DNA of 64,000 bases, taken from positions 62,001-126,000 of the forward strand of contig CAUJCR010000006.1 of NCBI GenBank assembly GCA_963169355.1, read 5' to 3'. Each line of letters opens with the position of its first letter. The stretch's first letter is position 1. Both the position numbers and the translations under genes were made by a program. The DNA is from Bacteroidota bacterium. Lineage in GTDB: Bacteria > Bacteroidota > Bacteroidia > B-17B0 > Aurantibacillaceae. Shown here one piece after another: positions 35,949-62,238 of this stretch. The notes beneath the pieces are model-generated. The model worked only from the letters and a program-made list of their open reading frames with translations. It ran no database searches and had not been told where the DNA came from.

Positions 35949-37163
35949 ATGGCTACATCTGTAAAAATAGTATTTAGAAAGGACAAAAAAAACACCAAAG
36001 GTGAAGTTCCTTTATATCTTAGAATTATTAAAGGGCGCAAACCAAAATATATTGCCCTAGGGATTTTGGTTCCGGAAAAATATTGGGACGAAGAAAACAA
36101 AAGAATTAAGAGAGGCATGGAAAACTCTCAGCGTCTTAATAACAAGATTGCAAACAAACTGGCTGACGCAGAAAATCTGGTTTGGGATTTAGAAAAAAAG
36201 TCAAAGGATATTTCTTCAAGCAAGATAAAAGATAATATTATGGGAGCTGATTCGCCCAGCTTCTTCGAGTACTGTAAACTTTACTTTATGGATGTAAAAG
36301 GTAAAATTGCAGGGTCAACTTATGATAAAGCTGAAGGAGTAATTAATAAACTGAAAGATTACAGAAACGGTAAAGATTTAACCTTTGAAGATTTAAATAC
36401 TCGATTCCTAAAGGAATATGAATATCATATGAGAAACAAAAAAGGCAATAAGAACAATACTGTTTTTGCTAATATGAAAATCATCAGAAGAATTGTGAAT
36501 GAAGCCATAAAAGATGATGTCATTAAAATTGACCAAAATCCTTTTTTAAAATACAAGTGTAAATGGGAACATGTAGAAAAAGCATTTTTAACTGAGGAGG
36601 AAATAGAAAAAATAGTAAACATGAAATTAGAACCCGGAACAAAAGCTTTTAATGTTCGCAACGCTTATATTCTATCAGCTTATGCCGGCGGATTAAGAGT
36701 TTCTGATATTTGTAAATTGAAATGGATAAATTATGATGGCGAAAGGATTTTTCTTTACACAAAAAAATGTAAAGGTGTACCGGTTTCAATTAAACTACCT
36801 CCTAAAGCCCAAGAAATAATCCAGTGTTATTACAGTGAAAACATAAAACCAAATGATTTTATATTTCCTTTCCTGGATAATAACACAGATTACTCAGACG
36901 AAGATTATTTAACGAAATGTATTGATTCTCAGGATACAATAATTAATAAATCATTGAAAGAAATTGCAGAAGATCTTGAGTTAAATAAACACATCACATT
37001 TCACTCATCTCGTCACACATGGGCTACAAGAGCATTAAGAAAAGGAATGCGAATTGAATATGTGTCTAAATTAATGGGGCACTCTTCTATTAAAACCACG
37101 CAAGTTTATGCAAAAATTGTAAATGAGGAACTTGACAAAGCAATGGATGTTTTCAACGATTAA
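35949..37163 (+). CDS. Tyrosine recombinase (island integrase)
   Basis: 404 residues. An N-terminal arm-binding domain (1-60, VPEKYWDEENKRIKRG) is followed by a SAM-like core-binding domain (105-200) and the catalytic domain. Catalytic residues Arg250 (GGLRVSDI), His352 and Arg355 (FHSSRHTWATRAL), His378 (MGHSS) and Tyr387 (TTQVYAKI) are present, with Lys274 or nearby. This is the Bacteroidota element-type integrase. It lies 180 bp from attL and should catalyse excision and integration at the tRNA-Cys site. Confidence 0.95.
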   Translation: MATSVKIVFRKDKKNTKGEVPLYLRIIKGRKPKYIALGILVPEKYWDEENKRIKRGMENSQRLNNKIANKLADAENLVWDLEKKSKDISSSKIKDNIMGADSPSFFEYCKLYFMDVKGKIAGSTYDKAEGVINKLKDYRNGKDLTFEDLNTRFLKEYEYHMRNKKGNKNNTVFANMKIIRRIVNEAIKDDVIKIDQNPFLKYKCKWEHVEKAFLTEEEIEKIVNMKLEPGTKAFNVRNAYILSAYAGGLRVSDICKLKWINYDGERIFLYTKKCKGVPVSIKLPPKAQEIIQCYYSENIKPNDFIFPFLDNNTDYSDEDYLTKCIDSQDTIINKSLKEIAEDLELNKHITFHSSRHTWATRALRKGMRIEYVSKLMGHSSIKTTQVYAKIVNEELDKAMDVFND

Positions 37164-40511: not shown

Positions 40512-43025
40512 ATGGCTACTAAAAAATCAGAACTCTATTCATCATTGTGGGAAGGATGCGACGCGTTACGTGGTGCAATGGATGCTTCTCAATACAAAGA
40601 TTATGTGTTAGTAATGCTTTTCTTGAAATACGTTTCAGATAAAGCGAAGAACGACAGTAAAGCTTTAATCGAAATCCCTAAAGGCTGTTTCTACGATGAC
40701 ATCATTGATGTAAAAGGAACTAAAGATATTGGCGAAAAAATCGACACTGTCATTGGCGCTATTGCTAAAGCAAACGACCTCGAAAAAGTGATTGATGTTG
40801 TTAGCTTTAACGACGAGGAGAAGTTAGGCAAAGGAAAAGAAATGATTGACCGCCTAAGTAACCTAGTGGCAATTTTCGAAAACGATGCTTTTGATTTTAG
40901 TAAAAACCGTGCTGAAGGTGATGATTTATTGGGCGATGCTTACGAATACTTAATGCGTCATTTTGCTACCGAGAGCGGAAAATCAAAAGGCCAATTTTAT
41001 ACACCTGCCGAAGTATCTCGTGTTTTAGCAAAAGTATTAGGCATTAGTAATACTACTAAAAAAACCTCTTTTTATGATCCCACATGTGGGTCCGGGTCGC
41101 TGCTTTTAAAGGCAATTGAGGAAGCTAATGGTAAAGGAACTTTATATGGCCAAGAAAAAGAAGTAGCAACCGCTGCCTTGGCTCGTATGAATATGATTAT
41201 TCATAACAACCCCGATTCAACAATTGTAAAGGGACAAAGCACTTTATCCAATCCTTTGTTTACTGATAAAAACGGAAACTTAGAATCATTTGATTACATC
41301 GTTGCTAATCCTCCTTTTTCTTTAAAAAATTGGACAACTGGTTTCAAACCATTGGATGATGTTTATGATAGATTTACAGGCTTTGGCATTCCGCCCGAAA
41401 AAAATGGAGACTATGCTTTTTTATTACACATTGTTAAATCATTAAAAAGTTCGGGTAAAGCAGCCGTTATTTTACCGCATGGTGTTTTATTCAGAGGTAA
41501 TGCCGAAGCAGAGATTCGTAAAAACTTAATTAAAAAAGGATTCATAAAAGGAATTATTGGTTTGCCGGCAAACTTGTTTTATGGCACTGGTATTCCTGCC
41601 TGTATTATTGTGATTGATAAAGAAGATGCCGATACTCGTAAAGGTATTTTTATGATTGACGCAGGAAAAGGGTTTATGAAAGACGGAAACAAAAACCGTT
41701 TACGCGAACAAGACATTCATAAAATAGTCGATACATTTACTAAACAAGAAACAATTGAAAAATACAGTCGCTTTGTTTCTTTATCGGAGATTGAAGATCC
41801 TAAAAACGATTACAACTTAAATATCCCTCGTTATATTGATAGTCAGGAAGCCGAAGATATTCAAGATATTGAAGCACATTTGTTAGGCGATATTCCTAAT
41901 CAGGATATTGATGCTTTGAGTAATTATTGGGAAGTATATCCTTCCTTAAAGGCCGAATTATTTAAAGCTTCTAAACGTAAAGGCTATAGTCATCCAAAAA
42001 TAAATAAAGACGAATTAAAGCAATTTATTTTTAGTCATGCTGAGTTTATAACCTTTGGTAAAAAACTCGATAAAGTTTTTTCGGCTTGGAAAAAACGTAG
42101 CACCGATTATTTAAAAGAGTTGAAAAAAGGCATTAAACCAAAACAGGTCATACAACAAATTTCAGAAGACGCCTTAAATGCTTATTCTAATATAGCCTTG
42201 ATAGATAGATACGATATCTATCAGCACATCATGGACTATTGGAATACAACTATGCAAGATGATTGCTATATGATAGCCATTGATGGTTGGAAAGCAGAAC
42301 CTTACCGCATTATCGAGAAAAACAAAAAAACAGGTAAAGAAACCGATAAAGGTTGGACTTGCGATTTAGTACCACCTGAATTAGTAACCAACAGATATTT
42401 TGCTAAAGAGAAAAAAGCCTTAGATAATTTAATTGCTGAGAGAGATACAGTTGCAGCGCAACTAACAGAATTAGAAGAAGAGCATAGTGGTGAAGAAGGT
42501 TATTTTGCAGATTTTGATAAGGTTAATAAAGCTTCTGTACAAAAACGTTTAAAGGAAATAGAGGCTAGTACAAAATCAATTAAAACAGAAACGAAAAGTA
42601 AAAAACTGGCAATGGCTGCCGAACCAAGCAACGAATATAAAATTGCTCGTCAACAAGTAGAAAACTATGTGCATGCCGAAGAAATCGAAGTTTTGCAAAA
42701 CTATTTAAACCTTATCGAAAAACAAGCAGAGTTAAATGTTCAAATTAAAGTATCTGAAATTGATTTGTCTTTAATGTGTATGAAACAATATAGCAAATTA
42801 TCTATGGATGATGTGAAACAATTAGTAGTAGATGATAAATGGATGCAAAGCATCGAACTTACAATTAAAGCAGAAACCGATCGCATCAGTCAAACCTTAA
42901 CACAACGTATAAAGGAGTTAGAAGAAAGATACGAGAGTTCATTACCTCAATTAAATAACGAGGTGAATGAACTTGAACAAAAGGTAAACGCTCACCTTCA
43001 AGAAATGGGATACTCATGGAACTAA
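40512..43025 (+). CDS. hsdM: Type I restriction-modification methyltransferase subunit HsdM
   Basis: 837 residues. N-terminal HsdM_N helical domain (1-130), then the N6-adenine methylase with SAM motif I FYDPTCGSGS (187-196), the QFYTP entry (161-165) and catalytic motif IV NPPF (266-269). The C-terminal about 350 residues (from 480) are rich in Glu/Lys helices, probably coiled coil, and make it longer than classical HsdM of about 500 residues; long forms are common in this phylum. Forms the M2S methylase that protects host DNA. Overlaps hsdS by 10 bp. Confidence 0.97.
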   Translation: MATKKSELYSSLWEGCDALRGAMDASQYKDYVLVMLFLKYVSDKAKNDSKALIEIPKGCFYDDIIDVKGTKDIGEKIDTVIGAIAKANDLEKVIDVVSFNDEEKLGKGKEMIDRLSNLVAIFENDAFDFSKNRAEGDDLLGDAYEYLMRHFATESGKSKGQFYTPAEVSRVLAKVLGISNTTKKTSFYDPTCGSGSLLLKAIEEANGKGTLYGQEKEVATAALARMNMIIHNNPDSTIVKGQSTLSNPLFTDKNGNLESFDYIVANPPFSLKNWTTGFKPLDDVYDRFTGFGIPPEKNGDYAFLLHIVKSLKSSGKAAVILPHGVLFRGNAEAEIRKNLIKKGFIKGIIGLPANLFYGTGIPACIIVIDKEDADTRKGIFMIDAGKGFMKDGNKNRLREQDIHKIVDTFTKQETIEKYSRFVSLSEIEDPKNDYNLNIPRYIDSQEAEDIQDIEAHLLGDIPNQDIDALSNYWEVYPSLKAELFKASKRKGYSHPKINKDELKQFIFSHAEFITFGKKLDKVFSAWKKRSTDYLKELKKGIKPKQVIQQISEDALNAYSNIALIDRYDIYQHIMDYWNTTMQDDCYMIAIDGWKAEPYRIIEKNKKTGKETDKGWTCDLVPPELVTNRYFAKEKKALDNLIAERDTVAAQLTELEEEHSGEEGYFADFDKVNKASVQKRLKEIEASTKSIKTETKSKKLAMAAEPSNEYKIARQQVENYVHAEEIEVLQNYLNLIEKQAELNVQIKVSEIDLSLMCMKQYSKLSMDDVKQLVVDDKWMQSIELTIKAETDRISQTLTQRIKELEERYESSLPQLNNEVNELEQKVNAHLQEMGYSWN

Positions 43026-44269
43026 AAGAGAAAACTAAATATAAGCAAACTGAGTTGGGTTTAATTCCAAATGATTGGTTAGTAGTAACTTTAGGTGAAA
43101 TCGGTAATTTTAAAAATGGAATTAATAAGTCAACCGAAGATTTTGGCTTCGGTTCTCCATTTGTAAACTTAATGGACGTATTTGGTAAATCAAGCATTAG
43201 TTCAAATAATGACTTTGGCTTAATCAATACAAATGATGCAGAAAAAAAATTATATAATTTGATTAGTGGTGACGTTTTATTTATTAGATCATCTGTTAAA
43301 CCTTCAGGTGTAGGATTAACTAGTTTAATTGAAAGAGATTTACCCGATACCGTATTTAGTGGTTTTATTATTAGATTTCGTGATAATGGATTTTTGACTA
43401 AGGAGTTTAAGAAGCATTGTTTTTATAATGAAAAATTCAGAAATAATTTAATTGGTAATAGTACCGTTAGTGCAAATACTAATATAAATCAAGAGGCTCT
43501 AAAAAAACTTTTAATTGCTGTTCCATCTGATAAAATGGAACAAAAAGCTATTGCCACAGCATTAAGCGATACAGATAATTTAATTAATAGCTTAGAAAAA
43601 CTCATCGCAAAAAAGAAAGCTATTAAACAAGGGGTAATGCAAAGATTGTTTAAGCCTAAAAAAGGATGGGAAGTTAAAACCTTGGGTATGTTGGGTAAAG
43701 TATATGGCGGACTTTCTGGAAAATCAAAACAAGATTTTAGTAATGGACAATTTCCATATATCCCATTTATGAATGTGATGAGTAATCCAAAAATTGATAT
43801 TCAATATTTCGGATATGTAAATATCAATACTGGTGAGGTGCAAAATAAAGCTCAAAAAGGAGATCTTTTTTTTAATGGGTCATCTGAAACTCCTGAAGAA
43901 CTCGGAATGTGTTCAGTGTTATTACACGATATCCCAAATTTATATTTAAATAGTTTCTGTTTTGGTTATCGGTTAAATAGTGAGTTTAAAACTGATGGAC
44001 TTTACTTGTCTTATTTTTTTAGAAGTAGTGAAGGCCGAAAATTATTTTACTCAATGGCGCAAGGAGCAACAAGATATAATTTATCAAAAGCTAATTTTAA
44101 TAAACTCGAAATTTTAATGCCGAAACCAGATGAACAAATAAAAATTTCTAAAACTTTATCAGATATGGATTCAGAAATTTTTGCTTTAGAAACTAAGCTC
44201 GGTAAATGCAAACAAATCAAACAAGGCATGATGCAAAATTTACTAACGGGTAAAATTCGTTTAGTATGA
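43016..44269 (+). CDS. hsdS: Type I restriction-modification specificity subunit HsdS
   Basis: 417 residues with two target-recognition domains. Domain one starts near GLIPNDWLVVTLGEIGNFKNG and is followed by the conserved helical spacer (EQKAIATALSDTDNLINSLEKLI), domain two near KGWEVKTLGMLGKVYGGLSGKS and its own spacer with ISKTLSDMDSEIFALETKL. The two-part layout implies a bipartite target sequence. Overlaps its neighbours on both sides, so hsdM, hsdS and the PLD gene are translationally coupled. Confidence 0.95.
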   Translation: MELKEKTKYKQTELGLIPNDWLVVTLGEIGNFKNGINKSTEDFGFGSPFVNLMDVFGKSSISSNNDFGLINTNDAEKKLYNLISGDVLFIRSSVKPSGVGLTSLIERDLPDTVFSGFIIRFRDNGFLTKEFKKHCFYNEKFRNNLIGNSTVSANTNINQEALKKLLIAVPSDKMEQKAIATALSDTDNLINSLEKLIAKKKAIKQGVMQRLFKPKKGWEVKTLGMLGKVYGGLSGKSKQDFSNGQFPYIPFMNVMSNPKIDIQYFGYVNINTGEVQNKAQKGDLFFNGSSETPEELGMCSVLLHDIPNLYLNSFCFGYRLNSEFKTDGLYLSYFFRSSEGRKLFYSMAQGATRYNLSKANFNKLEILMPKPDEQIKISKTLSDMDSEIFALETKLGKCKQIKQGMMQNLLTGKIRLV

Positions 44270-45456
44270 GTGTTCAGTTTATTTCAAATAACAATCAAAA
44301 TCATTTCACTCAACTTAATGAGCTAATTCAGTCAGCTGATGAAGTTTGGATGGCAACAGCTTTTTTAAAACAATCGGGCTTAACTAAATTATTACTTGCA
44401 ATTAAAAAACATGTAGAGTCTAAGAAAGATATCCACATCATTGCCGGGCAAAACTTTGGTTTAACCGAACCTAAAGCATTAATTGAGTTGCATAAACTTT
44501 TTCAAAATAGCAACAACGCTAAAGTGTATTTAGCTCATGCCAATAAACCAACCGAAGTATTTCATCCTAAATTATACCTCTTTCGCAAAAACGATGATTT
44601 CACTATTCTATCAGGCTCAGCAAATTTAACCGAGGGCGGTCTTCAATCAAATGTAGAGTGCTCTCTATTAATCAAAGCTAATCGCAATGATTCTGTTTGG
44701 AAAGAAACATTATTGTTTTTTAATAAAATCTTGTCACCTGAATTTTCGCAGGAAGCAACTTATGATGTCATCAAACAATACGAATCATACTACGAACAGC
44801 AAAAACAACTTAACCACCAAGCTAAAGCAATTCCTACACGCACCAAAACACAAATTAACTTTAGCCAGGATTTAATTAAGTTGTTTAAAGAGTATGATAA
44901 CAAAGAGAGAGATAAAATATTTAAGAATAAAACAGCCAATTATTTAGAGGCTAAAAAAGTACTTAATGCAATTGCAGATCATCCAAAATTAACACAAAGT
45001 ATTTTTGAAGAACTACTGGATAAATTAGTGGGCAGCTCAGAGGAAGATAATTTGTGGCATAGTGGTAGCTTATATCGCTTACGTCGTAAAGTCTACCCTT
45101 ACTATAAAGAATTTCAAACTTTAGTTAAATATATCAGAGAACAATCTAACAGTTCCGCAGCTTCTGTTTTTTCAATGGCAAAAAGTATGATTGATAACAT
45201 TGAAGGAGCTGGCCCTAATTATATAGCTGAAATTATGATGACTTATAATCCTGATAATTTTGCAAATCTTAATAAAAATCCTTTAACCGTATTAAGAGAA
45301 AAAGGCGGATTAAATTTAAAAGCAACTTCAGTCGCATATAATGGAATTGATTATCAGGAATACTGTAACGTGGTAAAAGATATCAGTAAAAAAGTAGGAA
45401 TTAGGAATATGCTGGAAGCTGATAGTTTTTTCAACTTCATTTACTGGAATCTATAA
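44266..45456 (+). CDS. PLD-like (HKD) nuclease-family protein within the type I locus
   Basis: 396 residues. One HKD-type motif: His100-Pro-Lys102 in FHPKLYLFRK, followed by SGSANLTEGGL (116-126), as in PLD nucleases that work as dimers. The C-terminal half (about 185-396) is helical and unrecognised. It overlaps hsdS by the ATGA sequence, so it is made with the methylase. Such proteins occur in some restriction loci and may act on DNA ends or as an accessory restriction activity; this is inference. The gene is followed by a hairpin. Confidence 0.85.
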   Translation: MSVQFISNNNQNHFTQLNELIQSADEVWMATAFLKQSGLTKLLLAIKKHVESKKDIHIIAGQNFGLTEPKALIELHKLFQNSNNAKVYLAHANKPTEVFHPKLYLFRKNDDFTILSGSANLTEGGLQSNVECSLLIKANRNDSVWKETLLFFNKILSPEFSQEATYDVIKQYESYYEQQKQLNHQAKAIPTRTKTQINFSQDLIKLFKEYDNKERDKIFKNKTANYLEAKKVLNAIADHPKLTQSIFEELLDKLVGSSEEDNLWHSGSLYRLRRKVYPYYKEFQTLVKYIREQSNSSAASVFSMAKSMIDNIEGAGPNYIAEIMMTYNPDNFANLNKNPLTVLREKGGLNLKATSVAYNGIDYQEYCNVVKDISKKVGIRNMLEADSFFNFIYWNL

Positions 45457-45517
45457 ATCATTAACATTCTACCGGCTGATTCCCAGTATTTTACATTTCA
45501 ATTGTCAATATAATGTC

Positions 45518-45591
45518 AAAAAACTAAAATAAGCACCCTTCTTATTTTAGTTTTTTGCTATTTTCTAAAATAAGCACTACATTTATTTTAG
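45518..45591 (+). promoter_or_regulatory. Tandem operator-like palindromes (and terminator) before the second fic gene
   Basis: Palindrome 1: a perfect 16-bp stem, 45518-45533 with 45541-45556, seven-base loop and a T-run, so it can also terminate the PLD transcript. Palindrome 2: CTAAAATAA (45565-45573) with TTATTTTAG (45583-45591). CTAAAATAAGCAC occurs in both (45524 and 45565, 41 bp apart). The fic ATG is 18 bp further on. Confidence 0.7.
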
Positions 45592-45609
45592 TTTTTAAAA
45601 TTAACAATT

Positions 45610-46734
45610 ATGAAGTCCTTTAAATCAGGCACTTATATAAATCAGGGAACCTATAAAAGTTTCCAGCCGGCACATATCAATCGCCAATGGGTTTTAGACG
45701 ATATGGAAATTCAAAAACTCCTTGGTCAAGCCGATAGAGAGCTCGGTCGTTTGGATATGTATTCCGAATACATCCCTAATATAGATATGTTCATTCAAAT
45801 GCACGTATTAAAAGAGGCAACCCAAAGTACAAAAATAGAAGGTACTCAAACCAATATGGAAGAAGCCCTATTGGATAAAGATAGTGTACCTATTAATAAG
45901 CGTGACGATTGGGAAGAAGTACAAAATTATATTGCAGCAATGAATCAGTCTAAAACAGAATTAGAAAAAATTCCGTTTTCATCAAGACTAATTAAAGAGG
46001 CGCATAAAGTATTATTAAAAGGAGTAAGAGGCAAACATAAATTGCCTGGAGAGTTTCGTCAATCTCAAAACTGGATTGGTGGAGCAACCATAAACGATGC
46101 AGCGTTTGTGCCACCGGTGCATAGCACAGTTAATGAGTACATGAGCGATTTAGAAAAATTTGTACATAATGAGGAACAACCTTTCCCTGAAATTTTAAAA
46201 ATTGCCATTGTACATTATCAGTTCGAAACCATTCACCCCTTCTTGGATGGTAATGGTCGTGTTGGTCGTTTAATGATAACATTGTATTTAGTAAGTAAAG
46301 GAATATTAAAACAACCTATATTATACTTGTCAGATTTTTTCGAAAGAAACCGTCAATTGTATTATGATAACTTAACTCGTGTGCGCGAAAAAAATGATAT
46401 TAAACAATGGTTTAAATTTTTCTTGGTGGGCGTAATCGAAACAGCACAAAATGGTATTAAAACATTCGATAACATTTTAAAATTGCAAAAAGAAACAGAA
46501 GCTAAAATTCAAACTCTTGGGTCAAGAGCCGGTAATGCACAAAAGCTGCTGAATATTTTATATAAACATCCAATGATAGAGCCAATAGTGGTAATAAATG
46601 AAATTGGTATTTCAGCGGCATCTGCATATAAGTTAATTGCAGACTTCGAAAAATTGGGAATATTAAAAGAAGTAACAGGCGGCAAACGTGGTAAATTGTA
46701 CTTATTCAAAACCTATGTAGATTTATATAAATAA
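45610..46734 (+). CDS. Fic family AMP-transferase within the type I locus
   Basis: 374 residues. Active motif HPFLDGNGRVGR at 209-220 and inhibitory motif Ser73-Thr-Lys-Ile-Glu77-Gly78, so a self-inhibited enzyme. The last 90 residues (HPMIEPIVVINEIGISAASAYKLIADFEKLGIL) form a winged helix, linking it to the palindromes upstream. It lies 1 bp before hsdR and is probably co-transcribed with it but not with hsdM/hsdS. Fic genes inside type I loci are a recurrent arrangement in several phyla; the function there is not settled. Confidence 0.93.
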   Translation: MKSFKSGTYINQGTYKSFQPAHINRQWVLDDMEIQKLLGQADRELGRLDMYSEYIPNIDMFIQMHVLKEATQSTKIEGTQTNMEEALLDKDSVPINKRDDWEEVQNYIAAMNQSKTELEKIPFSSRLIKEAHKVLLKGVRGKHKLPGEFRQSQNWIGGATINDAAFVPPVHSTVNEYMSDLEKFVHNEEQPFPEILKIAIVHYQFETIHPFLDGNGRVGRLMITLYLVSKGILKQPILYLSDFFERNRQLYYDNLTRVREKNDIKQWFKFFLVGVIETAQNGIKTFDNILKLQKETEAKIQTLGSRAGNAQKLLNILYKHPMIEPIVVINEIGISAASAYKLIADFEKLGILKEVTGGKRGKLYLFKTYVDLYK

Positions 46735-46735
46735 C

Positions 46736-49700
46736 ATGATGCGCAAGGAAAGAGAAACTCAAGACAGAGTAATTAAATTACTTCAAGAGCAATTAGGGTA
46801 TAACTATTTAGGCAATTTTGAAGAACGCGAAGATAATAGCAACCTGGAAGTTGATATATTAAAATCCTTTTTACAAAAAAAAGGATTTTCTGAAAGCTTG
46901 ATTTCGAAAACTATTTTTGAATTTAAGAGAGAGATTGCATTAAATGCAAATGATGATTTATATCCAGTAAACAAAACGGTTTACTCGTTATTGCGTTATG
47001 GGGTAAAAGTGCGTGAAGAAGCGGGCGAAAAAGTTCAAACAATTTATTTAATTGATTGGGAAAACCCACAAGAAAATAGTTTTTCAATTGCCGAAGAAGT
47101 AACCATTAAAGGAGAAAAAGTAAAGCGCCCGGACATTGTATTTTATATAAATGGAATTGCAATAGGAGTTTTAGAGTTAAAACGCGCATCTGTATCAGCT
47201 TCCGAAGGCATTCGTCAAAATTTAGATAATCAGCAACATCGATTTATTAAACCATTTTTTACTACCATTCAATTAGTATTAGCAGGTAATGATTCGGAGG
47301 GTTTATATTACGGAACGACTAAAACTTCAGAAAAATATTTTCTGAAATGGAAAGAAGATAATTACACCTACAATCCAAATAAAAATCTGTTGGACCAACA
47401 TATCTTACAGTTTTGTAGTAAAGAACGTGTACTTGATATTATTCACAACTTTATTGTGTTTGATAGTGGTATTAAAAAATTATGTCGTCCAAATCAATAT
47501 TTTGGCATTAAGGAAGCTCAAAAATATATTACAAGAAAGCAAGGAGGTATCATTTGGCATACACAAGGCAGTGGTAAAAGTTTAACCATGGTGTGGTTGG
47601 CAAAGTGGATACGCGAAAATGTAAAAGATGCTCGTTTATTAGTTATTACTGATAGAACAGAGCTAGACGAACAAATTGAAAAAGTATTTAATGGTGTTGA
47701 TGAAACCATTTATCGCACAAATAGCGGTAATGATTTAGTGACAAAATTAAATGCATCAATGCCTTGGTTAATATGTACACTGATACATAAGTTTGGAGGT
47801 AAAGAAGAAACAGATACTAAGGAGTTTATTGAAGACTTAAAACTACCACCTGATTTTAAAGTAAAAGGTAATTTATTTGTTTTTATTGATGAATGTCACC
47901 GCACACAAAGCGGTGATTTACATAGTGCCATGAAAAAGATATTGCCGGATGCTTTATTTATTGGTTTCACAGGCACGCCACTATTAAAGAAAGACAAAAA
48001 GAAAAGTATTGAAATTTTTGGTCCATACATTCATACATACAAATTTGATGAAGCAGTTGCCGACGGAGTAGTGTTAGATTTATTATACGAAGCAAGAGAT
48101 GTAGATCAACATGTGCTTGATCAAAAAGGTATTGATGAATGGTTTGATGCAGTAACAAAAGGCATGAACGATTTGCCAAAAGCAGAATTAAAACAAAAGT
48201 GGGGCACTATTCAAAAAGTATTAAGCACCAAAAGCCGTTTAGAGAAAATTGTATTTGATATTATTAAAGACTTTAAAGTAAAACCACGCTTAAAAGACGG
48301 TAAGGGCAATGCTATTTTAGTTGCACGTAGTATTTACGAAGCTTGCAGGTATTACGAAATATTCCAAAATTTTGGATTTAAAAAATGTGCTATTATTACT
48401 TCGTTTGAGCCAAATTCAAATAGTATAAAAGGCGAAGAAACAGGTGATGGAGAAACTGAAAAAATAGAGCAATACGAAATCTATCAAAAAATGTTAGGTG
48501 GTAAAGACCGAGAAACATTTGAGAAATTTGCCAAGAAACAATTTGTTGACGAACCTGCCAATATGCAACTCTTAATTGTAGTTGACAAGCTTTTAACAGG
48601 CTTTGATGCTCCAAGTTGCACATACCTGTATATTGATAAACAAATGCAAGACCACGGTTTATTTCAGGCAATTTGTCGTGTTAATCGTACAGAGAAAGAA
48701 GACAAAGAATTTGGATTTGTTGTAGATTATAAAAACTTATTTGATAGCTTAAACAAATCCATTCAAGATTATACCTCAGATGCATTCGATTTATTTGATC
48801 AGGAAGATGTAAAAGGATTATTAGTAAATCGTTTAGAGAAAGGCAAGGAAAGATTAGACGACGCCATCGAAACATTACATCAATTATGTGTGCCGGTTGA
48901 GCCACCAAAACAAATTGAACAATACATAAAGTATTTCTGTGGTAACACACAAATACCCGAAGCATTAAAAGAAACAGAAGAACTACGTTTAACTTTCTAT
49001 AAGTCAGTTGTAAACTTAATAAGAGCTTATAATAACATAGCTTCCGAAATGGAAGAAGCTGGATATACAAAGCAGCAAGCTGAAAAAATAAAATTAAAAG
49101 TTGATGAATACACCGAGTTGCGAAATTCTATTAAAAACGCAAGTGGTGATTATATTGATTTAAAAAAATATGAGCCTGATATGCGTCAGTTGTTAGATAT
49201 GTATTTAACAGCCGACCCAAGCCGCACCTTATCAAATTTTGGAGATGCTACATTGCTACAAATAATTGTAGATAATGGAATCATGGATGGAATTAATCGC
49301 TTACCGCAGCAAATAAAAAATAGCCCAACGGCCATGGCCGAAACCATTGAGGCTAATATGCGTAAAGTAATTGTTCAGGAAATGCCTATTAACCCGGCTT
49401 ACTACGAAAAAATGAGTACACTTTTAACGGAGTTAGTGCGATTAAGAAAAGAGGCAGTAATTGATTATGAGAACTATTTAAAAGAATTAGAGGAACTAGC
49501 AAAACAAATTCAACCCAAAGCAAGTAAATCTAATTATCCTAAAACAATTGACAACAGGGCTAAACAAGCATTGTATGATAATTTAGAAGAAAACGAAGGT
49601 TTAGCAAATGAGTTATATAGCAGAATAGATGAAGAGCGTCCTGACAATTGGAAGAGTAATAAAATGAAGGAGAAAATAGTGCGCAATGTGGTTTGTGAAG

Positions 49701-49783
49701 TATTAGAACGATACGGACATTCTACCGATGGAGAAGTTGATAAAATAATGGACATTGTAAAAAATCAACAAGAGTTCGAGTAA
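46736..49783 (+). CDS. hsdR: Type I restriction endonuclease subunit HsdR
   Basis: 1015 residues. N-terminal nuclease of PD-(D/E)xK type: RPDIVFYINGIAIGVLELKR (131-150) with Asp133, Glu147 and Lys149. Superfamily 2 motor: Walker A TQGSGKS (276-282), DECH at 385-388, TGTPL near 408, and a helicase C-terminal region with LIVVDKLLTGFDAPSCTYLYID and QAICRVNR. All motifs are intact, so restriction activity is expected. Two ATGs (46736, 46739) are possible starts. It overlaps the next gene by 1 bp. Confidence 0.97.
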   Translation: MMRKERETQDRVIKLLQEQLGYNYLGNFEEREDNSNLEVDILKSFLQKKGFSESLISKTIFEFKREIALNANDDLYPVNKTVYSLLRYGVKVREEAGEKVQTIYLIDWENPQENSFSIAEEVTIKGEKVKRPDIVFYINGIAIGVLELKRASVSASEGIRQNLDNQQHRFIKPFFTTIQLVLAGNDSEGLYYGTTKTSEKYFLKWKEDNYTYNPNKNLLDQHILQFCSKERVLDIIHNFIVFDSGIKKLCRPNQYFGIKEAQKYITRKQGGIIWHTQGSGKSLTMVWLAKWIRENVKDARLLVITDRTELDEQIEKVFNGVDETIYRTNSGNDLVTKLNASMPWLICTLIHKFGGKEETDTKEFIEDLKLPPDFKVKGNLFVFIDECHRTQSGDLHSAMKKILPDALFIGFTGTPLLKKDKKKSIEIFGPYIHTYKFDEAVADGVVLDLLYEARDVDQHVLDQKGIDEWFDAVTKGMNDLPKAELKQKWGTIQKVLSTKSRLEKIVFDIIKDFKVKPRLKDGKGNAILVARSIYEACRYYEIFQNFGFKKCAIITSFEPNSNSIKGEETGDGETEKIEQYEIYQKMLGGKDRETFEKFAKKQFVDEPANMQLLIVVDKLLTGFDAPSCTYLYIDKQMQDHGLFQAICRVNRTEKEDKEFGFVVDYKNLFDSLNKSIQDYTSDAFDLFDQEDVKGLLVNRLEKGKERLDDAIETLHQLCVPVEPPKQIEQYIKYFCGNTQIPEALKETEELRLTFYKSVVNLIRAYNNIASEMEEAGYTKQQAEKIKLKVDEYTELRNSIKNASGDYIDLKKYEPDMRQLLDMYLTADPSRTLSNFGDATLLQIIVDNGIMDGINRLPQQIKNSPTAMAETIEANMRKVIVQEMPINPAYYEKMSTLLTELVRLRKEAVIDYENYLKELEELAKQIQPKASKSNYPKTIDNRAKQALYDNLEENEGLANELYSRIDEERPDNWKSNKMKEKIVRNVVCEVLERYGHSTDGEVDKIMDIVKNQQEFE

Positions 49784-50496
49784 TGAAGGTGATGGAGATA
49801 GGAGAACTTAAAATAGAAGTTGTAAAAAAAGAAATAAAGAATATCCATTTGGCTGTATATCCAAAAGGAAATATTCGTCTCACATCTCCAAGAGATTTGA
49901 AAGACTCCACTATTCGTTTATATGCCATTTCAAAGTTAAGTTGGATAAAAAGACAGCAACGTAAATTTGAAAAACAAGAACGAGAATCTTATCGCAATTA
50001 TGTGGAACGTGAAAGCCACTATTTATTCGGAAAAAGATTATTATTAAAGCTTAAAGAAGCAGAAATGCCAAGCAAAGTTTTAATAAGAAACAAAACACAA
50101 TTAGAATTAACAGTAAGACCGGGAGCAGATAGAGAGAAGAAAGAAAAATTACTAGAGGAGTTCTATCGTAATGAATTAAAAAAACGAATTCCTGAGTTGA
50201 TAGAAAAATGGGAAAAGAAAATTGGAGTTAAAGTTTCTGCTTGGGGCGTAAAAAAAATGACAACCAAATGGGGAACATGTAATAGAGAAGCAAAGAGAAT
50301 TTGGATTAACTTAGAACTAGCAAAAAAGCCAATTTCGTGTTTAGAATACATTATAGTACATGAAATGGTTCATATTATTGAAAGACACCATAACGATAAG
50401 TTTATGTCATTAATGACAAAACACTTACCAAAATGGAAACAACTAAAAAACGAATTAAACACATCACCAGTAAGTCATATTGACTGGGAGTATTAA
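49783..50496 (+). CDS. YgjP-like zinc metallopeptidase (M48/DUF45)
   Basis: 237 residues. HEMVHIIERHH near residues 192-202 is the HExxH zinc site with the third ligand His downstream; KWGTCNREAKRIWINLELAKKP precedes it, the standard YgjP signature. The start overlaps the hsdR stop (TAATG). These small cytosolic metalloproteases are frequent partners of hsdR and could regulate the restriction complex by proteolysis, as ClpXP does in enterobacteria; that role here is inferred. Confidence 0.9.
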   Translation: MKVMEIGELKIEVVKKEIKNIHLAVYPKGNIRLTSPRDLKDSTIRLYAISKLSWIKRQQRKFEKQERESYRNYVERESHYLFGKRLLLKLKEAEMPSKVLIRNKTQLELTVRPGADREKKEKLLEEFYRNELKKRIPELIEKWEKKIGVKVSAWGVKKMTTKWGTCNREAKRIWINLELAKKPISCLEYIIVHEMVHIIERHHNDKFMSLMTKHLPKWKQLKNELNTSPVSHIDWEY

Positions 50497-50507
50497 AAAT
50501 ATAAAAG

Positions 50508-52343
50508 ATGGAATTAGCATACATATGGACCGATAAATTTAAAGTGCTTTCAAATTTTTCTTGTAAGTTTTGTTCAGATATTGATGTCGATATTAATAAT
50601 AATATTTTCTCAATTAAGGAATTGGATGACAAAAGAGATCCATTTAAGGGATTTTATGGTAAGGGAATAAAAGATTTGAAAGTTATTGTTGGAGAAAACG
50701 GTAGTGGTAAAAGTACAGTAATGGAATTAATAAAAATTCTTTGCTGTACAGCTGAAAAAGATATAAAAAGAAGAAGCCCAGACTCATTTAATGCTTTTGT
50801 TTTATTTCGTGAGTCAAAAGACAAATACTTTTATCTAGCGCAAGGGAATGTGCCATTTGAAAAATCAATTAAGGGTATAAAAAAAGAGACAATAAAAAAA
50901 GATGGTGAAAGGATTAATGGGTTAGAGTTTGTTTACTATTCAAATCTATTTGAATATGGAGAAAAGTTAAAAAATAATTATCCTTCTCTTTTTGATATTT
51001 CAACTATTGGAGAAGTTAAATCTTCTTTTCATTCATTAGAAAATGAAATGGGGGGTGAAATAACCTATGATTTCGTTGCTGACTATTTTAATAATTCAGA
51101 AATTAATCGTCAAGTAGAGTTGGTTTTTTCGAAAAAAATAAAGACCCCTTTTAAACTGCCAGAGAAACTTAATTTGAGTATTGCAGAGATAGATTCTTTG
51201 TTTGATCCCTATATTCCTGATTCTAGTTACAGTAGGAAAGATAGAATGATTCTTAAAGGTATTTCAAGCTTTATCTCTCAGTTTGACTATGAAAAGCAAA
51301 TGCCAGTAAAGTATAACAATCAAGATGCTTTCAAATACAGTCTTTTAAAAACAGCTTTAGTTGCTTATATTAAAGAAAAAAGTCAAAATACTGAAACTGG
51401 AGTAGCTCTAGCTTCCTATAAAGTGGAAGATGAGATAATTTATAAAGTGATAACTGAAATTACTACTCAGAATATTGATGAAAAATTTATTCAGTTTTTT
51501 GAACTTTTCAAGAATTACTCAGATTACTATGTCTTTGATGGAAAAAAATTGCATAAAGCATTATGTGATATTTCAATCTTTTTGTCAAAGAAAGGAACCT
51601 TACTGAATGATAAAAGTGCTTTTTATTTTTCAAGAAAAGATAAAACTGATGAGGAATTTAGAAATATTTTAGAAAAATATTTTAATCTCAATTTTTTTCC
51701 AACTATTATAAATTTTAAATGGTACAATCTAAGTTCGGGTGAAATTCAATTTCTTAATTTATTATCAAGAATAAATGAGCTTAAAGTCCTAAGTGATAGT
51801 AAAAATGTAGTGTTCATGATTGATGAGGGAGAGATAACCTTGCATCCGGAATGGCAAAGACAATATGTGAAATTCATAGTAGATAATTTAACTACATTGT
51901 TCCCAAACACAGAGTTTCAACTAATACTTTCAACTCATTCTCCCATAATACTTTCTGATATTTTAGACCAAGACATAAAGTATTTAGGCAAAAAAAATGA
52001 TTCAATAAAAACATTTGGAGCCAATATTTATGAATTATATTCAAGGTCATTTGCTATGAATTACGTGATGGGGGACTATGCAAGAAAGAAAATCGAAGAA
52101 CTTCTGGGGGATTTGTTTAAATTGAAGAACGCATCTGAAAAAAATAGCATTAAGATTAACCAAGCAAAATACACAGAGCTTGAACAAACAATAAATGTAA
52201 TTGGTGACGAGCCTATACGATTAAGATTGCTTGAAATTTTGGATGCAATTCCAAATAACTTTACAGATCTTACGAAGGAACTTAATATGGCCAAAAAGAG
52301 AGTTCAAGAACTAGAAAAAAGAATGGAAAATGAGAAAATTTGA
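50508..52343 (+). CDS. ABC-type AAA ATPase, Septu PtuA-like
   Basis: 611 residues of an SMC/OLD-type ATPase. Walker A GENGSGKST (62-70), ABC signature LSSGEIQ (408-414), Walker B VVFMIDEGE (434-442) and the H-loop STHSP (475-479) are all present. The region between is a helical insertion of about 330 residues. The N-terminus (MELAYIWTDKFKVLSNF) is the style of defence ATPases. Its 14-bp overlap with an HNH gene matches the two-gene Septu system (PtuA-PtuB), where the ATPase controls the nuclease. A generic ATPase-HNH pair of another subtype is possible. Confidence 0.8.
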   Translation: MELAYIWTDKFKVLSNFSCKFCSDIDVDINNNIFSIKELDDKRDPFKGFYGKGIKDLKVIVGENGSGKSTVMELIKILCCTAEKDIKRRSPDSFNAFVLFRESKDKYFYLAQGNVPFEKSIKGIKKETIKKDGERINGLEFVYYSNLFEYGEKLKNNYPSLFDISTIGEVKSSFHSLENEMGGEITYDFVADYFNNSEINRQVELVFSKKIKTPFKLPEKLNLSIAEIDSLFDPYIPDSSYSRKDRMILKGISSFISQFDYEKQMPVKYNNQDAFKYSLLKTALVAYIKEKSQNTETGVALASYKVEDEIIYKVITEITTQNIDEKFIQFFELFKNYSDYYVFDGKKLHKALCDISIFLSKKGTLLNDKSAFYFSRKDKTDEEFRNILEKYFNLNFFPTIINFKWYNLSSGEIQFLNLLSRINELKVLSDSKNVVFMIDEGEITLHPEWQRQYVKFIVDNLTTLFPNTEFQLILSTHSPIILSDILDQDIKYLGKKNDSIKTFGANIYELYSRSFAMNYVMGDYARKKIEELLGDLFKLKNASEKNSIKINQAKYTELEQTINVIGDEPIRLRLLEILDAIPNNFTDLTKELNMAKKRVQELEKRMENEKI

Positions 52344-53349
52344 GTTATTTTTTGATATTGATTCAGAAAAAGAATTTGTAGATTTAAATACTTTAGAAAC
52401 TAAATTCAAAAAACTTCTTGAATCTAAAGTTGGTGGCTTTATCAGGCCAATTGATAATTTGAAAATTTATCAAAAAACATTTTCTGTAAAACAACAAGCT
52501 TCTTTTAAATATAGATTCCTGAGTTTTTTGATTAAAAATTATGACAGGATATTAGTATTAAAACCTAATGAGATGCAGAATTTGATAAATAGAATGGATA
52601 GGTTGAAGCTTACGGAAAATTTTTATAAAAAAAAGAAAAATGGGAAGTATGGGCAGACAAAATTTTGCACTAGATTATTAAAGGAATTGCGATATGAAGA
52701 GGCTTTAGGTGGTGGTTCGAGAGGTAAAGATTTAGCCAGAATGATTAATATTAGAGCATGTTCTTATTGTAACTCTCAATATACTTTTTCTTATAAATAT
52801 GATAAAAAGAAAATATCTAAATTACAGCTTGATCATTTTTTTTCTAAGTCGAAATATCCTTATTTGTCAATATCCCTATATAATCTAATACCATCTTGTT
52901 CTTATTGCAATCAAAAGAAAAGCAATAAAGGGTTTAATTTATCCGAATATTCACATCCATATGAAGAATCATTTTCTGATAGGTTTAAATTTAAATTAAG
53001 TCCGGCATCGGAAAAGAAATTAATAGCGAAATATAAAATTGAAGAAAAGGAAATTGACATTATTTTGGAGCACACTAATGATATAAAGGTTATAAATCAT
53101 GATGATATTTTTGATTTAAGTGGCATATATAGTAACCATAAAAATATCGTCAAAACTATTTTGAAGACAAGTAAGGCTTACCCGAAGCGTAAGATTAAAG
53201 AAATTTTAGATTTAAAAGATGAGCATGGTAACCCTTTATTTTCAGATGAACAAGAATTTAAAAGAACATTCTTAAATGTTCCCTTAAATGAAAATGAAAT
53301 AAATACAGAACCTATTTCTAAATTGAAGCAAGATTTTATGATTAAATAA
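52330..53349 (+). CDS. HNH nuclease, Septu PtuB-like
   Basis: 339 residues. Zinc pairs CSYC (144-147) and CSYC (190-193) frame the HNH core QLDHFFSKSKYPYLSISLYNLIPSC with Asp168-His169 and Asn185. N-terminal 130 residues are basic (KLTENFYKKKKNGKYG) and could bind nucleic acid. The gene overlaps the ATPase gene, so the products should act together. Best read as the effector that cuts DNA when the ATPase senses infection. Confidence 0.82.
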   Translation: MRKFELFFDIDSEKEFVDLNTLETKFKKLLESKVGGFIRPIDNLKIYQKTFSVKQQASFKYRFLSFLIKNYDRILVLKPNEMQNLINRMDRLKLTENFYKKKKNGKYGQTKFCTRLLKELRYEEALGGGSRGKDLARMINIRACSYCNSQYTFSYKYDKKKISKLQLDHFFSKSKYPYLSISLYNLIPSCSYCNQKKSNKGFNLSEYSHPYEESFSDRFKFKLSPASEKKLIAKYKIEEKEIDIILEHTNDIKVINHDDIFDLSGIYSNHKNIVKTILKTSKAYPKRKIKEILDLKDEHGNPLFSDEQEFKRTFLNVPLNENEINTEPISKLKQDFMIK

Positions 53350-55648: not shown

Positions 55649-56360
55649 CACCTCTTTTTTCTTATTTAGTACCAGGTAAAAAGGTGTTCCTTAGCCTGCT
55701 CCCAACAACAAAACACGCCAAACCAAAATAGCACATGCTTTAGTGCTGTCTTTTCAAGGCATACAGCATAAGCTATTTTGCCCTCTGGGCTTTGGGTTTG
55801 TCATGTTTGTTGTTTTAGTCACGGGCTTGCGTCACGGCAGCCTACTTTGTCCTTCAAGCAACTTCATTCTTTTCGTTCCACTTCACCCGTTCCATTCGCT
55901 TCGCTACTTACACTGGGTTTCATTTCACTTCAATCATTTCAGCCGCTTTCAGTCCACCGGCTGCCAACTTTTCAGCTCGCCTGCGTAGTCGCTCGGGCTG
56001 CGTTCAATAGGCGCTTATTTTTCGCGCGTTCGTTGAGCCTGCCGAAGCGAAAAAATAAACAAACCTATTTCACTTGTGTTGTCCATCGTGTGGCATAAAT
56101 TAAGGTAGATTAATTTATTGTTTTGCCACACTGGCAACAAGGGTTGCCTCCGCTTTCGTCGTGTCCTCCTCAAGCTCCCAGGCTGCCCACCCTCGCTCCA
56201 CTCGCAGGTGGCTCGCCGCACATCGGATTGCAAACCGTTCATTTCGTTCAGTGCACCTTTCAGGATGCACTTCACATCATTCACTATTTGCAACCTCATC
56301 CTACGCTAGCCGCAGGCGCTTTTACATTTGATAATAGAGCTTAATTGTAATGTATATTTT
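55649..56360. other. GC-richer non-coding block with dispersed-repeat look
   Basis: About 700 bp without a believable gene. The + strand is pyrimidine-rich and visibly higher in GC than the island. It contains CGTTGAGCCTGCCGAAGCG (56031-56049), a phrase I associate with dispersed repeats of Bacteroidota genomes, inside an inverted pair TTATTTTTCGC (56015-56025) / GCGAAAAAATAA (56047-56058). Short open frames here lack starts, codon bias and homology-like features. Confidence 0.5.
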
Positions 56361-57714: not shown

Positions 57715-58137
57715 ATGCTTAAACATAAAATCAAAACACACAAATCAGGTAAAACTTACAATCAACCGCACTTCTTTATTTTAAATAAGGGTCTCAACTC
57801 AGGCAAACCGTTTAGGCATTATGTATGCAATTCATTTGTTTTCCTGGCAGATGATAAAAACGAAAGAGATTTTTATTATTTCATGTTACAAGGCATTTGG
57901 GAGCTTCGTTTGTTGCGTCCATATCTCAAAGGTACGGCAGTTGAGTTCGTTCGTTTAGGTGATGTTATTGATGTTTTGGAGGAGGTTTTAAATTCAATTA
58001 ATTCCGGTAATCGTTCATTTTATGATGTGCAAAAATCATTAGCACAAATTGAATTATTGCAAAATAATTTACAAACTCAATTAACCTATCTCATGCAACT
58101 GCGCAAATCTTTATTTCATAAATATTTAAAAAAGTAA
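57715..58137 (+). CDS. Conserved Bacteroidota protein, DUF6943-like
   Basis: 140 residues: basic start (HKIKTHKSGKTYNQPHFFILNKG), a central segment with NSFVFLADDKNERDFYYFMLQGIWE and a helical C-terminus. From memory this matches a family (DUF6943) that occurs in Bacteroidota integrated elements; I have no function for it. It is the only + strand gene of the right-end set and converges on the minus-strand genes at a shared terminator. Confidence 0.6.
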   Translation: MLKHKIKTHKSGKTYNQPHFFILNKGLNSGKPFRHYVCNSFVFLADDKNERDFYYFMLQGIWELRLLRPYLKGTAVEFVRLGDVIDVLEEVLNSINSGNRSFYDVQKSLAQIELLQNNLQTQLTYLMQLRKSLFHKYLKK

Positions 58138-58192: not shown

Positions 58193-58381
58193 TTATTTAT
58201 TGAGTTTTTTAACTAACCACTTTAACAACAACGACACACTAAAACTAACCACCGCGCCAAGCCCGGCAAGAATAACTGTTTTCACAATATCTGATGAACC
58301 AACGTTCACAGCTACGGTTAAGACCGTTCCGGAAACAGTACCCAAAATAGTTCCGTTTTCTATGTTATTGTGTGTTGACAT
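58193..58381 (-). CDS. Small two-helix, holin-like membrane protein
   Basis: 62 residues from the ATG at 58381 (a TTG two codons earlier is possible). Polar start STHNNIENG, first hydrophobic segment GTVSGTVLTVAVNVG, a short GSSDIVK turn, second segment TVILAGLGAVVSFSVSLLLKW and the basic end LVKKLNK. The size and charge layout recall phage holins or small pore peptides. It is last in the minus-strand set, 10 bp after the KLTKADAG gene. Confidence 0.6.
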   Translation of the reverse strand: MSTHNNIENGTILGTVSGTVLTVAVNVGSSDIVKTVILAGLGAVVSFSVSLLLKWLVKKLNK

Positions 58382-58391
58382 GATCAAATAA

Positions 58392-58730
58392 TTATGCTAA
58401 GCCCGCATCAGCTTTAGTTAATTTTGCTCCACATTTTTCGTGTACATCAACCACAATGTCAGGTACTCGACCGGCATCCGCTTTGGTTAGTTTTACACTT
58501 GCCCAAATTTCTTGTGTGGTTTCGGAAGTATAACCTGCATCCGCTTTAGTTAATTTTGAACCATCACAAGTAATAGCCAAAATAATTTTACCACAAAGTG
58601 TATCATCCTGGCTTTCGTGATTCATGACCTCAACAGATTCTTTTGTTTTTACTACCTCATTTGCACAAGGCAAAATTTGTAACTCAACTTTAGTTTGAGT
58701 TTTTTCGATTTGATTTTTTTCTTCAGTCAT
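58392..58730 (-). CDS. Small protein with three KLTKADAG repeats
   Basis: 112 residues, soluble. The N-terminal half is acidic and Gln/Glu-rich (EEKNQIEKTQTKVELQIL) with Cys at 27, 46 and 55. The C-terminal half has KLTKADAG three times, separated by 15 and 15 variable residues; the last copy is followed only by Leu-Ala and the stop. The repeats differ in codons but not in amino acids. The layout of a conserved leader followed by repeated short units is like multi-core peptide precursors, but no maturation enzyme is near. It lies between two small membrane-protein genes. Confidence 0.65.
   Translation of the reverse strand: MTEEKNQIEKTQTKVELQILPCANEVVKTKESVEVMNHESQDDTLCGKIILAITCDGSKLTKADAGYTSETTQEIWASVKLTKADAGRVPDIVVDVHEKCGAKLTKADAGLA
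58402..58557 (-). repeat. Three in-frame repeats encoding KLTKADAG
   Basis: Copies at 58402-58425, 58471-58494 and 58534-58557, 69 and 63 bp apart (23 and 21 codons). Copies one and two differ at five third or first positions, all synonymous. Confidence 0.85.
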
Positions 58731-58757: not shown

Positions 58758-58979
58758 TCAGTTTTGTTTAGCTGTTTCATTTTCGGTTACAGCTTGGCTT
58801 ACCGCAGTCGCTACGCTTCCTGCTACAATTAAGTAACCTCCAATAGTTACCACAATTGTTGGTATCGCAATAGGAGAGGCAACAATAACGCCGCCTGCGG
58901 CAGCTAATCCTAATCCAACATTTCTTAATATTTTAAAGAATTTTGGTGTTGGTGCTTTTAATCTATCTATAAGATTCAT
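58758..58979 (-). CDS. Small two-helix membrane protein
   Basis: 73 residues: amphipathic basic start NLIDRLKAPTPKFFKILRN, then two Gly/Ala/Val-rich hydrophobic segments (VGLGLAAAGGVIVASPIAIP and TIVVTIGGYLIVAGSVATAVS) and a polar tail. I recall near-identical small proteins in many Bacteroidota genomes, always of unknown role. It lies between the 249-residue gene and the KLTKADAG gene; a terminator at 59018 separates it from the former. Confidence 0.65.
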   Translation of the reverse strand: MNLIDRLKAPTPKFFKILRNVGLGLAAAGGVIVASPIAIPTIVVTIGGYLIVAGSVATAVSQAVTENETAKQN

Positions 58980-59054: not shown

Positions 59055-59804
59055 TTAGGCTACCTCAACAATGCTTAACGCATTGTAAGCGCCATTTTTC
59101 AGAGAATACTGTGTAGCATTTACCATTTGTAAGAACTCAATTTGTAACATGAACAAATTTGTTCCTGTACCAGTTGCAGCTGCTGTTGGAGTTAAAACAA
59201 CGTTTGATGATACAGCATTAATCGGTAGGTTCACTACGTTTGAATACTTAATATCAGAAACATTGTTTGCAAAATCCACTTTAGCCCAAGCACCTTTGAT
59301 ATTGATGTGCGTTGCTCCAGAAGGAAACGCAATATCATTTGCAGGGATAAGTCCGTTAATGGTAATTACTCCAGTTGCAGTAGTCACTGCAAAAGGTTTG
59401 AATAAAATACTTCCTAAAATTGCTTTATCATTGAAATTAAAGCCTTTTAACAACGCTTTAGCAGGAGCAAGAGCAATGGCAACGCCAACTGTTCTTTTGC
59501 CTCTTACAGAGGTTGCATCAAGGTTTTTAATATCAGTCATCAACTTCGTTAATCGTGATGTCACACGATTATCTGAAGCTGTCATAAGCAATGGCCTTAA
59601 AGTATTTCTTACTAGCTTTCCTGAGCTAGCAGATGAACCAAATTCAGCACCGTTTTCTCGGGTACGGATAAATGCCGGGTCGTTAGCTATACGACTGGCA
59701 TCTACACCACCTTTTTCACGAGCCAAATGTCCATCTTGGGTTTTGTAAAAGGATAAATCTCCGATTTTACCTTTTAACTTTATGATTCCTTTTTGTCTTG
59801 CCAT
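59055..59804 (-). CDS. Conserved 249-residue protein of the right-end module
   Basis: Basic N-terminus (ARQKGIIKLKGKIGDLSFYK), a charged, conserved stretch DGHLAREKGGVDASRIANDPAFIRTRENGAEFG (about residues 24-56), a helical part, then a beta-rich C-terminal half ending in FMLQIEFLQMVNATQYSLKNGAYNALSIV. I recall this family as widespread and unnamed in Bacteroidota. No signal peptide, enzyme motif or membrane helix. The basic, Gly/Ser-rich start and beta-rich end could suit a structural, self-assembling protein, but this is speculation. It is the first gene of the minus-strand set and has its own terminator. Confidence 0.7.
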   Translation of the reverse strand: MARQKGIIKLKGKIGDLSFYKTQDGHLAREKGGVDASRIANDPAFIRTRENGAEFGSSASSGKLVRNTLRPLLMTASDNRVTSRLTKLMTDIKNLDATSVRGKRTVGVAIALAPAKALLKGFNFNDKAILGSILFKPFAVTTATGVITINGLIPANDIAFPSGATHINIKGAWAKVDFANNVSDIKYSNVVNLPINAVSSNVVLTPTAAATGTGTNLFMLQIEFLQMVNATQYSLKNGAYNALSIVEVA

Positions 59805-60100: not shown

Positions 60101-60128
60101 AAATGTTTTACCTATGTTTTACCCATAA
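60101..60128 (+). repeat. Right integrase arm-type sites
   Basis: Two boxes, TGTTTTACCT (60104-60113) and TGTTTTACCC (60115-60124), in the same order and orientation as at 35883-35911; the flanking AAA and TAA are shared too. Confidence 0.65.
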
Positions 60129-60169: not shown

Positions 60170-60182
60170 GAGGTCCCGAGCG
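60170..60182. repeat. attR within the tRNA-Cys gene
   Basis: GAGGTCCCGAGCG, identical to 35756-35768. The island side brings nothing past this sequence, so the tRNA gene stays intact. Confidence 0.85.
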
Positions 60183-60241
60183 GATTCGAACCGCTGTACA
60201 AGCTTTTGCAGAGCTCTGCCTAGCCGCTCGGCCACAGGACC
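60171..60241 (-). tRNA. tRNA-Cys (GCA anticodon), island target
   Basis: 71 nt on the minus strand. Acceptor GGTCCTG/CGGGACC with one G-U, anticodon loop CTGCAAA giving GCA, T-arm with GCGGTTCGAATCCGC, discriminator T as required for Cys. An exact minus-strand TATTTTTG (60289-60296) about 50 bp upstream is a likely -7 element. Confidence 0.96.
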
Positions 60242-61536: not shown

Positions 61537-62238
61537 ATGAATCATACCATTAAATTTTGCATTGTAATTTTAGTAATAACTACTTCGGCTTTAGCCCAAG
61601 ACACTATTCACTTTATAGATAAAAATTTTCTAGCAACCAAAATTTCCGAAATAGGTATTAATGAAGTTAAGTACCATCGTTATGATAATTTAGAAGGACC
61701 GTTATACATTAGCAACAAATCAGAAATTAGGTTTATTAAATTTGCAAATGGTGCTATTGATACTATTACGAGTTCAATAGAGGCTGCTGTTTCTACACCA
61801 ACTATTACTTATCACACTTCATATCCCGCCAATATTACCACCAATCCACTTTACCATGAGAAAATTGATATTAAAGGCGCACGATTATATTACTCGGGTA
61901 AAAAAATAGGCGAAATGAAACTTAAAAAATTAGTGCTCGGAGAACCAGATGCGGCCAAACGAGCCACCATGCTTAATCAGTTTAAAGAAATGCATAAGTA
62001 TCAAGTAAAACAATATGTATTTGGTTTTAGTGGCTTAGCAGTTTCAATTGTAGCGCCTTTTGTAGGAATAATGACTTCGTTTCTTATTGGCGCAACCTCT
62101 CAGGAAAATTACACGCCAGCTGCGGTAGGTTTTGGCGTTGGTGCTGCTGCTGGAGTTACAGGCTTAACCCTTTCTGTTATTAATAAGAAGAAAAGAACAC
62201 AAAAGAAAATTGAAATTGCTGAAACGTACAATAAATAA
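61537..62238 (+). CDS. Exported membrane-anchored protein, paralogue A
   Basis: 233 residues. Signal peptide ending at ALAQ (residues 18-21), a beta-rich domain (FLATKISEIGINEVKYHRYDNLEGPLYISNKSEIRFIKFANG) and near the C-terminus two Gly-rich hydrophobic segments followed by a basic end KKKRTQKK. The N-terminal domain is clearly related to that of the next gene. Function unknown; the small domain after the signal looks like those of many Bacteroidota surface or periplasmic proteins. Confidence 0.7.
   Translation: MNHTIKFCIVILVITTSALAQDTIHFIDKNFLATKISEIGINEVKYHRYDNLEGPLYISNKSEIRFIKFANGAIDTITSSIEAAVSTPTITYHTSYPANITTNPLYHEKIDIKGARLYYSGKKIGEMKLKKLVLGEPDAAKRATMLNQFKEMHKYQVKQYVFGFSGLAVSIVAPFVGIMTSFLIGATSQENYTPAAVGFGVGAAAGVTGLTLSVINKKKRTQKKIEIAETYNK

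Follow-up and report, generated by a model that had tools for sequence, protein, structure and literature searches.

Short peptides of the host DNA-packing protein HU in unrelated small proteins of mobile islands of Bacteroidota

The eight-residue repeat KLTKADAG found in a small protein of a Bacteroidota bacterium is a copy of residues 15-22 of HU, the DNA-packing protein of the cell itself. Unrelated small proteins on mobile islands were found to carry the same or neighbouring HU stretches in their loops, linkers and tails, as if the peptide were a tag that something reads. The HU origin of the peptide is very likely, while its recognition by a reader is inferred. The protein, named P0001, is encoded in a 64,000-nucleotide stretch of DNA (positions 62,001 to 126,000 of contig CAUJCR010000006.1, assembly GCA_963169355.1), which is called the window here. 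The features of the window which are relevant to the analysis are as follows.

58392-58730, minus strand: tagged protein P0001 (112 aa) with three copies of HU residues 15-22
58533-58556, minus strand: tag copy 1, KLTKADAG (residues 59-66), conserved in orthologues
58470-58493, minus strand: tag copy 2, KLTKADAG (residues 80-87), degenerate in orthologues
58401-58424, minus strand: tag copy 3, KLTKADAG (residues 103-110), in the C-terminal tail, conserved in orthologues
58193-58381, minus strand: TM62, small membrane protein (62 aa), conserved cassette member (14 loci)
58758-58979, minus strand: TM73, small membrane protein (73 aa), conserved cassette member (19 loci)
59055-59804, minus strand: MARQK249, 249-aa cassette protein with predicted C-terminal beta-sandwich and no Pfam, PHROG or NCBIfam family
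57715-58137, plus strand: DUF6943 protein (140 aa), convergent cassette member (16 loci)
55667-56325, no strand assigned: conserved DNA element of about 600 bp beside the cassette in many genomes
60103-60124, plus strand: 11-bp direct repeat ATGTTTTACCTATGTTTTACCC at the tRNA-proximal end of the island
60170-60241, minus strand: tRNA-Cys (gca), insertion neighbourhood of the island
35949-37163, plus strand: tyrosine integrase, inferred other end of the island

An earlier note made from the sequence alone had reported three KLTKADAG units which are kept at the protein level only, and this observation was confirmed. The three DNA copies differ pairwise by 3, 3 and 5 synonymous and 0 nonsynonymous changes over about 6 synonymous sites, and the pair with five differences given in the note is right. 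A recent tandem DNA duplication was therefore rejected. The motif is not a chance occurrence, as its back-translated pattern matched 76 of 150 related genomes, often several times (HU genes included), while the same pattern read backwards matched once. The gene has orthologues in related genomes which mostly share 56-71% identity, so the gene is real. Comparison with the orthologues, which does not depend on the motif search, gave pN of 0.00-0.095 for copies 1 and 3 against 0.21-0.32 for the rest, with high pS, indicating strong constraint on these two copies. The middle copy was found to be degenerate in orthologues (KVTNTDKG, KITKADAG, KTTKADAG, KIASAEFG), drifting like the rest of the protein in two of four comparisons. 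So three units are a feature of this gene copy, while two conserved units are a feature of the family. The N-terminal part is mildly acidic (net -5), and cysteines are present at positions 22, 46, 55 and 100. The predicted strands across the N-terminal part argue against a leader peptide, although the structure model has low confidence (pLDDT 52). In the same model, used only as a hint for loops, the tags fall between or after predicted strands (E48-56, E73-81, E92-100).

HU of this genome reads MNKAELIEAIANGSKLTKADSARALD... and HU of related genomes of the window's family (f1), an uncultured family of Bacteroidia, reads MNKAELIDAIASGSKLTKADAGRALD.... KLTKADAG is HU residues 15-22. Some tagged proteins contain longer pieces such as KGELIDAIAAGSKLTKADAGR. 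P0001 has only the 8-mer, with no HU fold, no DNA-binding arm and no Pfam hit, while in a two-hairpin carrier residues 60-96 match positions 1-37 of the HU/IHF profile (PF00216) above cut-off (E 4.7e-6). To understand which parts of HU are reused, HU 6-mers were counted in 2739 non-HU open frames of the f1 loci collected. The profile showed a peak of about 100 hits at HU 15-17, a shoulder of about 25 at HU 5-11 and mostly 0-4 hits elsewhere. Segments beyond about residue 33 are hardly reused in f1, and only the helical body of HU is reused, not the beta arm that binds DNA.

After removal of the HU genes, 70 tagged ORFs of f1 were obtained with 96 tags, representing 89 distinct DNA sequences but only three peptides (KLTKADAG 69, KLTKADSG 21, KLSKADAG 6). 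As these counts come from an exact-motif search, the low pN among tags is partly due to selection of the data, while the synonymous saturation (pS 0.73) and the orthologue test are not. The flanks of the tags showed pN of about 0.6. The carriers are of several unrelated kinds. They include small beta-rich proteins like P0001, a 250-270-aa helical protein (here called 4HELIX; one member has 255 aa) whose central interdomain linker carries one or two tags, a fibronectin-like protein (locus L139), proteins ending in KLTKADAG (loci L066 and L111), and proteins of two complete HU helix-turn-helix hairpins encoded beside 4HELIX genes. Some 4HELIX copies lack a tag. Near-identical carriers in different genera (4HELIX of genomes G018, G044 and G073; G000 C19 and G026) indicate transfer. 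A third shared short motif of unclear source, KLK(N/V/K)VFGGK, was followed and occurs in few proteins, namely in tagged proteins, in one 4HELIX linker and at the ends of other proteins (loci L051, L080, L081, L082, L292 and L295).

Another lineage was found to use other pieces of HU in two of the same carrier families. Among 80 named relatives of 4HELIX, Bacteroidetes bacterium GWF2_35_48 (genome G150) carries KSKNALDAFIESTHK at the same linker site. Its own HU contains KKALDAFIESTHD and reads ...AKKALDAFIESTHDALKSKK...VVRFKAGSDLSKAVNK, and the reused segments are residues 22-33 and the C-terminal tail. Its 4HELIX linkers and tRNA-side proteins carry ALDAFIESTH plus FKAGSDLA-type HU tails. 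Sixteen copies of the ALDAFI(E/D)STH type were counted in tagged proteins of this genome (11 with E, 3 D, 1 H, 1 A), including proteins beside tRNA genes that also end in HU-like tails, one of which has LKAGSDLANKVK and FKAGSDLASKVK. When the HU C-terminal tail was searched as a tag across 395 genomes of the class, no genome showed more than 4 hits, so this use seems special to the GWF2_35_48 lineage. A relative, G471, has HU with ALDAFIDSTH, and all three of its tags read ALDAFIDSTH. The orthologous 4HELIX genes at loci L234 and L329 differ accordingly, E against D. A fibronectin-like carrier is also tagged in G471, at a different position from that in L139.

The tags tend to follow the spelling of the resident HU. 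Within f1, KLS tags are enriched in genomes whose HU has KLS (3/8 against 3/92, permutation p 0.0017), and genome G014, whose HU reads KTTKADAG, has two KTTKADAG tags. Position 21 alone is only suggestive (p 0.067). Two genomes do not fit: G058 has ADSG in its HU but five ADAG tags, and G151 carries an ALDAFIDSTH tag unlike its own HU, which is explicable by transfer. These tests are small and rest on few, related genomes that are not independent, mostly MAGs, and are taken as support rather than proof.

The gene belongs to a cassette with the constant order [HTH66] - MARQK249 - [DUF5675] - TM73 - tagged gene(s) - TM62 - convergent DUF6943, in which the bracketed members are absent in some copies, HTH66 and DUF5675 being absent in the window. 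Two copies lie in one complete genome (loci L069 and L070; 82-92% identical over about 4.5 kb). A Marivirga plasmid (L291:5352-6197, NZ_CP129969.1) has the cassette core without the tagged gene; its MARQK249 gene is not among the listed annotated features and appears split in the ORF list. No MARQK249 was detected in phages or viral contigs, no relative of P0001 was found in viral contigs, and a fold search with MARQK249 gave nothing at E <= 0.001. The cassette thus did not show the distribution of a phage structural or lysis module. The conserved DNA element of about 600 bp accompanies the cassette in many genomes with 68-80% identity over long stretches, without a convincing ORF or an Rfam match. 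An Rfam search around the locus returned only the tRNA. SymE-like small proteins are encoded next to cassettes (L069:6898-7122, L091:9379-9936 and L101:6308-6829), the L091 protein matching Pfam SymE_toxin.

In six cassettes a tRNA gene adjoins (Cys in the window, then Glu, Glu, Lys, Phe and Cys), and all five GWF2_35_48 beta-type carrier loci examined also adjoin one, while no tRNA was found in the eight 4HELIX-bearing loci scanned. Beyond the tRNA terminator, most of these ends show an 11-bp direct repeat of the type GGTAMAACATAGGTAMAACA. Such repeats lie about 290-310 bp before MARQK249 and just beyond the tRNA terminator (the window, L087, L076, L089, L090, L091, L102, L227, L231, L240 and L244), and the repeated sequence varies between loci but both copies change together. 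At L227, L231 and L240, proteins with divergent InlB B-repeats are encoded just upstream of the HU-tagged genes beside tRNAs. Between the tyrosine integrase and the cassette, the window contains defence genes (40512-53349), namely Type I restriction-modification, SoFic and a PDC-M62-type ATPase + HNH pair. An integrative island from the integrase to tRNA-Cys is inferred, although a matching repeat at the left end was not found.

The interpretation given in the earlier note was partly supported. Selection on the peptide rather than the DNA, the two flanking small membrane proteins and the absence of a nearby modifying enzyme all held, and a repeated binding motif or ligand remains possible in general form. 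The multi-core peptide was not supported, and the note missed that the motif is a piece of HU.

Taken together, the analysis itself establishes the match to HU, the portability of the motif among several unrelated accessory proteins, constraint at the peptide level, placement in linkers and tails, the use of other HU segments by a second lineage in some of the same carrier families, and the island context of the cassette. What is inferred is that the peptides are linear recognition sites for a cellular or invading factor that normally recognises the helical body of HU, such as a protease, a modifying enzyme or a binding partner. Carrying the HU peptide would make the mobile-element protein a docking partner, processing substrate or bait for that factor, which would explain why the tag follows the host's HU spelling while its DNA and surroundings drift. 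In P0001, the tags would be displayed in the loops and tail of a small beta scaffold next to two small membrane proteins. This general form is the best explanation but is held tentatively, as no reader protein is identified, the cassette core exists without a tagged gene and some 4HELIX copies are untagged. Different lineages also use different HU segments, which a single fixed-epitope reader would not predict; this argues against one rigid epitope and for a reader that follows HU as a whole or differs between lineages.

Among the alternatives, it is possible but unlikely that the tagged proteins act on HU itself, as island-encoded regulators which engage the HU dimer through its own helical segments (subunit exchange or dominant negative) and tune the host factor that tyrosine-recombinase islands use for integration and excision. 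The restriction of reuse to helical-body segments, the carriers with two complete hairpins, the position of tagged modules beside tRNA genes and 11-bp repeats in both lineages and the tyrosine integrase of the window island favor this view. IHF/HU-type factors assist such recombinases (BHFa for CTnDOT); a literature search returned no paper naming BHFa. However, an eight-residue loop peptide cannot fold into the HU dimer core, and no tRNA was found in the scanned 4HELIX loci. Somewhat less likely, the HU peptide may be a decoy for phage or competitor effectors (proteases or modifiers) that attack HU, and cleavage or modification of the tagged protein would release the neighbouring small membrane proteins or another response. 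The placement of the tags, their tendency to follow the resident HU, their position between two small membrane proteins and the defence genes of the window island are in line with it, but no effector that attacks HU in this way was found, there is no toxicity evidence for TM62 or TM73, and the cassette core exists without the tag gene. A degradation or processing signal read by Lon or another housekeeping protease that handles HU is doubtful. E. coli HU-beta is a Lon substrate (PMC6098112, PMC3391209). Its first Lon cut reportedly lies at residues 20/21, inside the equivalent of this motif. Against this, 62 Lon cut sites in HU-beta, no specific recognition sequence and resistance of HU-alpha to Lon are reported (PMC6098112), and the G150 segment lies beyond that site. 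Neutral leftovers of HU genes, captured by recombination and tolerated in linkers, are disfavoured; HU is a conserved source and the G471 tags share stretches of DNA with its HU, but the synonymous saturation with unchanged peptide, the conservation in orthologues, the many copies and the use of some of the same carriers in two lineages speak against it. A multi-core RiPP precursor or repeated secreted ligand, suggested by the repeated unit, the cysteines and the flanking membrane proteins, is very unlikely, as no modifying or export enzyme or peptidase was found in the cassettes, the octapeptide occurs singly in larger proteins including the 4HELIX linker, the middle copy is not conserved and the motif is an HU segment.

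Literature searches for KLTKADAG and LTKADAG found none, and searches on cassette and HU themes gave nothing relevant. Compared with HU/IHF proteins, the tag is a verbatim piece of the N-terminal helical part and some carriers hold one or two whole HU hairpins, but only 8-residue pieces are kept in P0001. In Rickettsia palindromic elements (PMC10969869), one short conserved peptide likewise appears in-frame in many unrelated proteins. Those are DNA elements of about 150 bp, while here DNA and flanks have diverged to saturation, only the peptide is kept, and it comes from a host protein; a DNA-element reading was thus rejected. In host short-linear-motif mimicry by viruses and in integrated decoys of plant immune receptors, a foreign or accessory protein also displays a host peptide that follows the host sequence; the present case is bacterial, HU-derived and on integrative islands, with no reader, partner or immune output known. 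The Bacteroides DUF4248-HU-smalltalk-amidase cassettes are also small mobile Bacteroidota cassettes with small DNA-binding and possibly wall-related proteins (DUF5675 here), but no HMM similarity was found, and whole HU genes are present there while HU fragments are present here.

The evidence leaves room for a reading, judged slightly less likely than not, in which mobile islands of Bacteroidota encode a class of proteins that display peptides copied from the resident HU and keep them matched to it as it evolves, so that a factor directed at HU also reads them. This would be a protein-level host-mimic tag or bait system not described before. If the tags are read, they point to an unknown activity directed at HU and to mobile elements that exploit it by peptide mimicry, with the motif giving a direct handle on the reader. 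It would also give a theme to large families of Bacteroidota proteins that have no function today.
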